This document shows, one piece after another, positions 20,200 through 23,210 of a stretch of 32,561 nt of DNA (position 1 is the stretch's first letter; every line of letters begins with the position of its first letter). Position numbers and translations under genes: made by a program. This stretch comes from Gemmatimonadota bacterium (lineage in GTDB: Bacteria > Gemmatimonadota > Gemmatimonadetes > Longimicrobiales > Gaopeijiaceae): the NCBI GenBank assembly GCA_007126575.1, contig SLBA01000098.1, forward strand, positions 1 to 32,561, read 5' to 3'. The notes below the pieces were generated by a model. The model worked only from the letters and a program-made list of their open reading frames with translations, did no database searches and was not told the origin of the DNA.

Positions 20200-20793
20200 T
20201 CACATCTCCCGGCGCCCCGAGAGCGCCTCGGCCAGTGTGGATCCGTCAACGTATTCGAGGTCGCTCCCCATCGGGAGACCTCGCGCGAGCCGCGTCACCC
20301 GCACCCCGAGCGGGCGCAGGACACCTTCAAGGTAGACCGCGGTCGCTTCTCCCTCAACCGACGGGTTGGTGGCCAGGATGATTTCGGCGATCTCGGCATC
20401 GGGCTCCCCGATCCGTTCGAGGAGCGAGGCCACGTTGAGTTCGTCGGGCCCGATCCCGTCGAGGGGGGACAGCCGCCCTCCCAGGACGTGGAAGAGTCCC
20501 CGGAACTCTCCCGTCTTCTCGATCGAATGGACTTCGAAGGCGCTCTCGACCACGCAGAGCGTCGTGCGGTCCCTCGCCCGGTCCGCGCAGATCCGGCACA
20601 GCTCCAGCTCCGTGTAGGTGCCGCACCGGGGACAGGGATGGATCCGATCGGCCAGTTCGCGGATCGCCGCCGAGAGCCTCCGGCTGCGCTCCCCGGGCTC
20701 CCGCATGAGGTGGTAGACGAGGCGAGTCGCCGTACGGGGGCCGATGCCGGGCAACCGACTCAGCTCCCGGGTGACCTCGTCGATCACCGACAT
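20200..20793 (-). CDS. recR: Recombination mediator protein RecR
   Basis: The 197-residue protein has the RecR order of parts. The helix-hairpin-helix at the N-terminus is LSRLPGIGPRTATRLVYHL. The four-cysteine zinc finger is CPRC...CRIC (about 54-72). The Toprim domain begins TTLCVVESAFEVHSIEKTGE and carries the acidic-rich NPSVEGEATAVYL. The C-terminal Walker-B-like tail contains VTRLARGLPMGSDLEYVDGSTL. RecR loads RecA with RecO/RecF during gap repair. The dnaX-ybaB-recR order is a well-known conserved cluster. It starts 7 bases after the ybaB stop. Confidence 0.97.
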   Translation of the reverse strand: MSVIDEVTRELSRLPGIGPRTATRLVYHLMREPGERSRRLSAAIRELADRIHPCPRCGTYTELELCRICADRARDRTTLCVVESAFEVHSIEKTGEFRGLFHVLGGRLSPLDGIGPDELNVASLLERIGEPDAEIAEIILATNPSVEGEATAVYLEGVLRPLGVRVTRLARGLPMGSDLEYVDGSTLAEALSGRREM

Positions 20794-21191: not shown

Positions 21192-23000
21192 TCAGTCCGC
21201 TATTTCCAGATCGAGCTCTTCTACCGCGGGCTTCAGGGCTGGTTCCTGGGCCAGAAGGTCGCTCAACTTGCCCTGGCGAACCTCGGTTCGCGAGATCCGG
21301 TCCCCCGCGTCGGACCCGGCGTCGCCCGACGCCCGGACCTCGAGTGAAACCCCCGCGGCGCCCAGCGTTCGAAGCCGCTCCTCGATCGTCTGTCGTACCC
21401 CCGAATCCCGAAGACGCTCTTCGCCCGGGCCATCGGGCACATGAAGCCGCAGCACCGTGCCGTCGGCCTCGGCACGAGTGGCCATGAGAAAGGGGGAAAG
21501 CCCCGACGGGACCCCCTCACCCGACGCCAGGAGAAGGCTCCAGGCCTCGAGAGGGGTCCGCTCCGGGGGCGCGCCCGACGATGCGATCGACACTGGGGCG
21601 GTCTCCGGGGCCGATGAGGCGGGCTGCGTCGAGGGCCGGGGCGTCGAGGGTCCGCTCTGCGAGGGGCCCTCGGGTGCCGGCGAGTTCGCTTTCGGGGAGG
21701 CCCTTCCGGGCGTTCCGTCGGTCCCCTGCGGCCCCGCGGTGGGCGGCGAACCGGTCGGTGCCCCCGTCGGCGCCCCGGTGGTCGGTGCCCCCGTCGGGGC
21801 TCCTCCCGTCGGGGGTGGGCCCGGGGCCGGCTCGACGGGCTGCAGCGGCGGGCCCTCGCCTCCCACGGCGCGCATGAGCTCCTCGATCTCGAGCGAGCGG
21901 TCCAGGTACGAAAAGCGCAGGAGGAGGAGCTCGAGGAGCACGCGGGGCTGGTTCGTGCGACGCAGACTGCCCGCGGTCTCGAGCTCGGCGGCCATCCCGA
22001 GCATCCGGACCAGGTCCGCCGGCTCGAACAGCCCCGCTCTCTGCGTCCAGTCCGCTACCCGTTCCTCGGGCAGATCGCTGCTCTCGGCACCGACGGCGAG
22101 GCGAAGGAGCGTCCGCAGCGAGGAGAGCAGCCCGTGATAGAACTCGACCAGATCGTAGCCCTGGTCGAGGAGATCCTCGACGAGCCGGAAGAGCCCCCCA
22201 CGGTCACCCGAACTCAGCAGATCGAAGAGTTCGAGGTACCGTTCCTCCTCGACGACCCCCAGGATCTTGCGCACCGTTTCGGGCCGGATGCCGTCTTCCG
22301 ACAGCGCCAGAAGCTGGTCGGTCAGCGAGAGGGCGTCCCGCATCCCCCCATCGGCCTTTCGCGCGATGATCCGGAGCGCCTCGTCGGTCGCCTCGGTCCC
22401 CTCGGCCGAGAGCACCTCGCGAAGCCGCTTCACGATCTCGACCACCCCGATCCTGCGGAAGTCGAAGCGCTGGCAGCGCGACATGATCGGGGCCGCCGTC
22501 TGCTCGATCTTCTGGGGTTCGGTCGTGGCGAAGATGAAGATCACCCGCGGAGGCGGTTCCTCGAGCACCTTGAGGAGGGCATTCCACGCCTCGCGGGTGA
22601 GCATGTGCGCCTCGTCGACGATGTAGACCTTGAAGCGGCCCTCTTCGGACGGGGCGTACTGGGCCCGCTGCCTCAGGTCGCGGGCGTCGTCGACCCCTCG
22701 GTTCGAGGCCGCGTCGATCTCGACGACATCGAGGGAGGTGGTTCCGCTCCAGATCCGCGTGCAGTCGTCGCAGCGGCCGCAGGGCTCTCCCTGGTCGGTC
22801 CGCTCGGAGCAGTTGAGCGCCATCGCCAGAACGCGCGCGAGGGTCGTCTTTCCGACGCCCCTGGGACCGCAGAACAGGTAGGCGTGCCCCACCCGATCCA
22901 TCGCCACGGCGCGTCGAAGCGTCTCGGAGACGTGCTCCTGAGTCGCCACCTCGGCGAAGCGCCGGGGTCGATGCTTCCGGGCCAGGGCGGTATGGGACAA
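21192..23000 (-). CDS. dnaX: DNA polymerase III subunit gamma/tau
   Basis: The 602-residue clamp-loader ATPase begins SHTALARKHRPRRFAEVATQ after the initiator, as DnaX proteins do. The P-loop GPRGVGKT is at 45-52, zinc cysteines are at 64, 74, 77 and 80, the Walker B VDEAH motif is around 129-131, and sensor/SRC (SRCQRF) is at 174-176. A Pro/Gly/Thr-rich linker follows at about 400-470, then a C-terminal domain of about 120 residues. The start is TTG at 23000 with no Shine-Dalgarno sequence. The frame is open further upstream to 23108, but that region is the SRP RNA gene, so the start must lie downstream of 23069. No clear A-rich frameshift site for a gamma form was seen. Confidence 0.93.
   Translation of the reverse strand: MSHTALARKHRPRRFAEVATQEHVSETLRRAVAMDRVGHAYLFCGPRGVGKTTLARVLAMALNCSERTDQGEPCGRCDDCTRIWSGTTSLDVVEIDAASNRGVDDARDLRQRAQYAPSEEGRFKVYIVDEAHMLTREAWNALLKVLEEPPPRVIFIFATTEPQKIEQTAAPIMSRCQRFDFRRIGVVEIVKRLREVLSAEGTEATDEALRIIARKADGGMRDALSLTDQLLALSEDGIRPETVRKILGVVEEERYLELFDLLSSGDRGGLFRLVEDLLDQGYDLVEFYHGLLSSLRTLLRLAVGAESSDLPEERVADWTQRAGLFEPADLVRMLGMAAELETAGSLRRTNQPRVLLELLLLRFSYLDRSLEIEELMRAVGGEGPPLQPVEPAPGPPPTGGAPTGAPTTGAPTGAPTGSPPTAGPQGTDGTPGRASPKANSPAPEGPSQSGPSTPRPSTQPASSAPETAPVSIASSGAPPERTPLEAWSLLLASGEGVPSGLSPFLMATRAEADGTVLRLHVPDGPGEERLRDSGVRQTIEERLRTLGAAGVSLEVRASGDAGSDAGDRISRTEVRQGKLSDLLAQEPALKPAVEELDLEIAD
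21754..21797. repeat. Direct repeat in the dnaX linker
   Basis: The 17-base sequence GTCGGTGCCCCCGTCGG occurs exactly at 21754-21770 and 21781-21797, a 27-base period. It encodes the repeating Gly-Ala-Pro-Thr linker of DnaX. Expansion or contraction here would vary linker length without affecting the domains. Confidence 0.7.
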
Positions 23001-23068: not shown

Positions 23069-23086
23069 AAAAAAAATGCCCCAGGT
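23069..23086 (-). terminator. U-run terminator ending the SRP RNA
   Basis: Eight consecutive U residues (23076-23069 on the transcribed strand) follow directly after the GC-rich closing helix of the SRP RNA (ten perfect pairs). The closing helix serves as the terminator stem. Because no other promoter for dnaX was found before its start at 23000, some read-through is likely. Confidence 0.55.
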
Positions 23087-23175
23087 CGACCGCAGCAACG
23101 ATCACCACACTTACCGCTGCTACCGGCGAGGTCCTGACGGATTTCGTGGGCTTTCATTCTGCGAACCTGGGGCAC
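23069..23175 (-). ncRNA. ffs: Signal recognition particle RNA (4.5S type)
   Basis: The transcript of about 107 bases was recognised from sequence and folding. The 5' end TGCCCCAGGT (23174-23165) pairs perfectly with ACCTGGGGCA (23086-23077), and CGCAG (23163-23159) pairs with CTGCG (23095-23091). The conserved domain IV is present: CCAC/GTGG, an internal loop GAAAT/TAAGT, CCG/CGG, the symmetric loop TCAGG/AGCAG, then the stem ACC/GGT. These lie between 23149 and 23105. This is the Ffh-binding region of SRP RNA. The apical loop is UCGCC (23129-23125), not the usual GGAA/GNRA or URRC tetraloop. An eight-base U-run follows. The location just upstream of dnaX matches that of scRNA genes in several bacteria. 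Confidence 0.9.
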
Positions 23176-23181
23176 GCATTC

Positions 23182-23210
23182 AAGCTATCGGGGATCGGGC
23201 GCGCAGTCAA
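23182..23210 (-). promoter_or_regulatory. Sigma70-type promoter of the SRP RNA gene
   Basis: TTGACT (23210-23205) and TAGCTT (23187-23182) are separated by exactly 17 bases. Six bases after the -10 lies G23175, immediately before the 5' closing helix. This agrees with the independently folded RNA end. It is the best promoter match noticed in the window and lies just after the yraN stop. Confidence 0.75.

Follow-up and report, generated by a model that had tools for sequence, protein, structure and literature searches.

Five-base apical loops in the SRP RNA of a Gemmatimonadota bacterium and many of its relatives

An SRP RNA gene upstream of dnaX

The window that we analysed, a stretch of 32,561 nucleotides from a Gemmatimonadota bacterium, carries on its minus strand a single gene for SRP RNA (scr/ffs), a structured RNA that is conserved, is served by a conserved promoter of its own and lies upstream of dnaX. 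The gene, of the small 4.5S type, starts just past the -10 box and takes in a T-run at its other end (23069-23181, minus strand, with an approximate 5' end). The RF00169 covariance model matches it over its full length (23172-23076, minus strand) with 40.1 bits against a curated cut-off of 40 (E 2.2e-5), and this is the sole Rfam family above its cut-off in a search of the window; a match to Six3os1_3 (14.7 bits, cut-off 40, E 0.22) we put down to chance. A first-pass annotation of this DNA had identified a 4.5S/SRP RNA, and the covariance model, once run, bears that out. Its coordinates and elements are also correct, since promoter boxes, terminal helix and loop are all present; it gave no strand, and the gene lies on the minus strand. 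A better SRP RNA gene elsewhere would have spoken against the identification, and no second copy was found in an RF00169 search of the whole assembly (3.68 Mb in 205 contigs).

The fold of the minus strand is strong. From 23180 to 23070 it reaches -51.7 kcal/mol (z = -4.95, with none of 200 shuffles as good), the terminal helix beginning at 23173, and compensatory changes are found in 19 of 24 predicted pairs of a 45-sequence alignment, so that the long hairpin with paired ends, kept by compensatory change, that marks RF00169 members is present here. The plus strand (23069-23210) has a z of -1.55, and a plus-strand hairpin reading was rejected, given the weaker fold and no family match above cut-off. 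The symmetric internal loop GUCAGG/AGCAGC, the predicted site of the Ffh M domain, is found at 23138-23133 and from 23121 (minus strand); in the RF00169 alignment its 5' side, GUCAGG, occupies 23133-23138 and AGCAG, on its 3' side, 23117-23121.

Upstream, a -35 box (TTGACT, 23205-23210) and a -10 box (TAGCTT, 23182-23187) stand on the minus strand, separated by a 17-base spacer. That the gene has its own promoter of this make-up had been proposed at first pass, and relatives agree: TTGAC-N16-19-TANNNT is kept in 25 of 29 same-family upstreams (f1; f1 to f10 are tool-assigned family labels, entered in a table by hand, and handles absent from that table were counted as f5), in 6/7 of f2 and in 6/6 of f10. 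Overall, 40 of 173 upstreams contain it, against 0.15 expected by shuffling. The strict pattern is found in none of 43 f4 and none of 65 f5 upstreams, and a looser one in 6/44 and 13/65, respectively, where the printed examples mostly retain a TANNTT-like box. A generic sigma-70 scan listed no promoter in the window because the -10 hexamer is poor. Taken together, the window's promoter is well supported, and its -35 part appears not to be universal across the phylum. At the other end, a run of eight Ts (23069-23076, minus strand) directly 3' of the terminal helix is a probable intrinsic terminator; a T-run of at least four within 40 bases downstream occurs at 52 of 173 loci, which means that the phylum does not generally use a U-run terminator here.

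The next gene downstream (21192-23000, minus strand, from the open reading frame list), which we take to be dnaX from its product sequence, probably starts near 23000 (TTG, MSHTALARKHRP); its listed start, 23108, falls within the RNA gene. The minus-strand order in the same list is SRP RNA, dnaX, ybaB-like and recR, the last two names presumably following from the products, and the order SRP RNA-dnaX-ybaB-recR is known in other bacteria. The best matches of the RecR-like protein (20200-20793, minus strand) are Gemmatimonadales/Gemmatimonadetes MAGs (L030 96%, L031 79%), which places the window in the Gemmatimonadota. Amid such matches, one record titled Gammaproteobacteria bacterium isolate Ww582 (L034), with a RecR 70% identical to that of the window, is probably a misnamed or mixed MAG.

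The apical loop and its length across the phylum

In its full-length match, GUCAGG/AGCAGC loop, hairpin rod, promoter, T-run and dnaX neighbour, the window gene is like the 4.5S RNA of RF00169. It differs at the tip, where the family consensus has a four-base apical loop and the window gene a five-base one: UCGCC on the stem ACC/GGU, at 23125-23129 (minus strand). The first-pass annotation had read this loop as five bases, neither GNRA nor URRC, and our own reading (23129-23125, minus strand) is the same. The GNRA-type or URRC apical tetraloop expected of RF00169 is therefore missing here, and we regard it as a usual and not an indispensable feature of the family, since 132 of 176 SRP RNAs of the phylum lack a four-base loop and the model accepts the window gene. 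An alternative triloop register, in which the CC of CCGCA or CCGAA pairs to GG, is conceivable for those loops and impossible for UCGCC, UUGCC and GUGAA; we did not adopt it. Predicted apical hairpins, when trimmed, give -4.1 and -3.7 kcal/mol with a pentaloop against -5.1 with GGAA, about 1 kcal/mol less stable.

The survey of the phylum comprises 178 SRP RNA loci (29 + 30 + 119 regions), with a loop readable in 177, from 176 genomes. These loci cover the best 150 matches listed in an RF00169 search in which 30 of 249 genomes had no match; weaker matches lie outside the sample and, consequently, tetraloops should be favoured in it, since they resemble the Rfam model more. A single locus (L120, genome G194), whose core is unreadable by rule and GAAA by eye, was left out, and genome G230, with two places, was counted once; its two matches (C143:24-121 and C187:21-118) score equally and lie at contig ends, and are probably the same gene appearing twice where the assembly breaks. 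Among the matches listed, the loop has five bases in 132 of 176 genomes and four in 44. All 31 genomes of f1 have five (CCGCA 15, UCGCC 11, GUGCA 4, UUGCC 1), as do all 18 of f7 (GUGAA 15, GCGAA 3); the corresponding fractions among the matches listed are 7/7 in f2, 2/2 in f3, 38/44 in f4, 35/65 in f5, 1/1 in f6, 0/2 in f8 and 0/6 in f10, the last two families having GGAA throughout. UCGCC itself recurs in both congeners (G001 and G002) and in the records L033, L038 and L048, and pentaloops are found in single-contig genomes such as G056 and G074, both CCGAA; the records L030, L031 and L041, judging by their upstreams, duplicate the loci of G001, G002 and G015 and are not independent of them. 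A pattern survey (TCAGGNCC-N3-7-GGNAGCAG) matches 199 of 249 genomes, some by chance, and returns the same loops plus CCGCC in G099. The five-base loop is the normal, majority state among the phylum members examined, and so a natural variant of an RNA that serves protein targeting universally.

Outside the phylum, GGAA caps all 13 readable SRP RNAs among the 80 loci of the RecR search, from Eisenbacteria, Zixiibacteriota, KSB1, a Chromatiaceae MAG, a Bacillota MAG and others, although two records (L100 and L108) are alike in the printed stretch, so that perhaps 12 are independent. A fourteenth match to the regular expression (L083), with a nine-base loop, was dropped as chance. Two further observations stand somewhat apart. 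In f3, an SRP RNA-like core with CCGCA (L028:1501-1594, minus strand; L029:1501-1591, plus strand) scores only 26 and 22 bits against RF00169 and has tRNA genes on one or both sides, and no dnaX following it; most f3 genomes have no RF00169 match, yet those in the pattern-survey list contain the core pattern. In addition, the conserved U.G pair by the symmetric loop can give way to C.A, turning GUCAGG/AGCAGC into GCCAGG/AGCAAC. This is so in 25 of 65 f5 genomes, where four-base loops accompany the change in all 25, and in a single one of the 31 f1 genomes (examples are L118:1503-1599 and L051:3818-3914 in f5, and also L015, L042, L043, L045 and L102); the change affects both sides jointly, as for a wobble-like C.A pair.

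Loop length has changed repeatedly. A tree built with FastTree from the joined FtsY and Ffh sequences of 29 genomes, with the GGAA-only family f10 as its root, needs at least six changes (500 label shuffles gave a mean of 9.9 and a lowest value of 5); support is below 0.2 at four inner nodes, which makes six an approximate number. The tree allows both for returns to a four-base loop (UAAC, GAGA, GGAA/GGCA, GAAA) and for pentaloops gained more than once. Within the mostly five-base f4, one genus (g53) has GGAA and GGCA (L115 and L123, genomes G052 and G253), a candidate reversal.

A standard receptor and a constrained loop

In E. coli, FtsY docks on the tetraloop (PMC4737761, PMC6059433 and PMC11404819); it is established that the internal loops are the binding site of Ffh and that the tetraloop is where FtsY first docks (PMC4737761, PMC11404819, PMC5115805). 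The window's genome encodes both partners above curated cut-offs, FtsY at G000:C133 and Ffh at G000:C98. Across 30 genomes chosen by loop class (16 pentaloop, 14 tetraloop), FtsY is above cut-off in 30 and Ffh in 29, the exception, G185, being absent from the 29-genome tree. With residues numbered on E. coli FtsY (from L229), the equivalents of W343, K399 (Lys399) and V403 are unchanged in 30/30, whatever the loop length. The R402 equivalent is R in 16/16 pentaloop and 11/14 tetraloop genomes, position 402 varying solely in the latter (3/14), while K406 corresponds to R or K in 29/30 and S362 mostly to A in both loop classes. No FtsY column fully separates the loop classes in the 30 genomes; the best, position 258, does so with an accuracy of 0.90, with gaps in two, and we set it aside as a case of co-variation with loop length, given that the cited passages do not name it as an RNA-contact residue. 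In Ffh, the M-domain motif R-[RK]-x-R-[IV]-[AS]-x-G-x-G can be read by eye in 29/29. With the FtsY residues and the Ffh motif conserved in this way, the loop-reading machinery looks standard with either loop length, as far as protein sequences can tell, and K399 conservation may reflect uses of that residue other than loop docking. It had been suggested at first pass that a changed loop could alter FtsY docking; this finds no support in a loop that is the majority state (132/176 among the matches listed) and in W343, K399 and V403 equivalents that never vary.

The loops themselves obey a simple rule, in that B-Y-G-M-M fits 132/132 pentaloops among the matches listed. By position, and again among the matches listed, these comprise C 71, U 33 and G 28 at the first base, C 99 and U 33 at the second, G in all 132 at the third, C 81 and A 51 at the fourth, and A 100 and C 32 at the fifth, all such counts being genomes and not independent events. 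First and last bases covary (C..A 71, U..C 32, G..A 28, U..A 1), while the phylum's tetraloops, likewise among the matches listed, are G..A in 41 (GGAA, GAAA, GAGA, GGCA) and U..C in 3 (UAAC, UAGC). GNRA and URRC loops show the same habit of G with A and U with C, and the pentaloop may accordingly retain their kind of closing mismatch plus one additional base.

Five bases can indeed mimic GNRA with one looped out, as in the boxB of phages and other GNRA-like pentaloops, where solved examples have the extra base in any of four positions and touch protein with it in three of these (PMC12550061, the main text of which does not contain the term SRP). The comparison fits some loops better than others: the relatives' GUGAA can be taken either as GNR(N)A, the boxB form, or as G(N)GAA, a GGAA into which a U has been inserted, whereas UCGCC has neither the initial G nor the final A, and CCGCA has no initial G. 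For B-Y-G-M-M loops in general a GNRA-like fold is a guess from sequence, UCGCC and CCGCA not being GNRA in their letters. We know of no structures of such pentaloops in SRP RNA.

What the pentaloop may do

Our preferred reading, to which we give a probability of roughly 0.6, is that the pentaloop is a functional substitute for GGAA, or for a tetraloop generally, in an otherwise ordinary SRP RNA, with docking kept, and not a defect. The RNA would bind Ffh via its usual internal loops; the pentaloop would fold as a GNRA- or URRC-like cap, one extra base probably being looped out; and FtsY would still dock on it through the Lys399 patch, speeding Ffh-FtsY assembly. The alternative that fares best, although we think it unlikely, is near-neutral variation, in which FtsY touches mainly the backbone, four and five bases are equivalent and the switches carry no functional meaning. 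The six or more switches that the tree requires, against shuffles that average 9.9 and go as low as 5, agree with this, as does the failure of any FtsY column to separate the lengths fully (position 258, at 0.90 and with gaps in two, being the best), but it sits badly with a third position that is G in 132/132 pentaloops among the matches listed, a second that is always a pyrimidine, and first and last bases that covary. A shade less likely again is that docking is altered or weakened, such that the pentaloop makes no FtsY contact and Ffh-FtsY assembly is slower or proceeds via protein-protein contacts. UCGCC does depart from GNRA and URRC, and binding in other systems falls when the loop is larger or is exchanged (PMC5115805); however, the K399 equivalent is kept in 30/30 FtsY sequences and R402 in all 16 pentaloop genomes, and relaxed function would not yield the constraint seen in 132/132 B-Y-G-M-M loops among the matches listed. 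Finally, a sequencing or assembly error, or a pseudogene, is so improbable as to be negligible: the RF00169 score is just 0.1 bit above the cut-off, yet UCGCC is repeated in both congeners and three further records, none of the close relatives carries the GGAA that would have signalled an error, pentaloops occur in single-contig genomes, and pairs change in compensation.

Returning to the pentaloop as a working substitute, one precedent for an SRP RNA likewise without the classical tetraloop is that of the chloroplast of Physcomitrella patens, and its likeness is partial. The moss RNA has a 10-base loop and weaker SRP54 binding, and replacing that loop by the E. coli tetraloop raises cpSRP54 affinity 6- to 11-fold (PMC5115805); Gemmatimonadota have a constrained five-base loop across the phylum. 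None of the titles and abstracts listed in searches of open-access literature describes a five-base loop in bacterial SRP RNA; the classical SRP RNA surveys, e.g. Rosenblad and co-workers 2009, lie outside those searches. SRP RNA itself is of course known, and the phylum-scale variant cap may be new. A fuller account, which we put forward tentatively and hold to be rather less probable than the substitution itself, is that Gemmatimonadota have a distinct class of SRP RNA cap. This B-Y-G-M-M pentaloop would descend from GGAA, still the loop of f10 and f8 as the outermost of the families sampled, would have switched several times with GNRA/URRC tetraloops, and would present FtsY, its surface otherwise conserved, with a looped-out additional base, amounting to a second, previously undescribed docking solution.

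All of this matters for two reasons. Models built on tetraloops seem to under-score such genes, as the 0.1 bit by which the window gene exceeds the RF00169 cut-off suggests. In addition, the apical tetraloop is regarded as the near-universal FtsY docking point of bacterial SRP RNA, and a phylum in which most of the members examined have a constrained pentaloop, and in which both lengths occur side by side among relatives, is a natural loop-swap set for asking whether FtsY reads length, backbone shape or bases.
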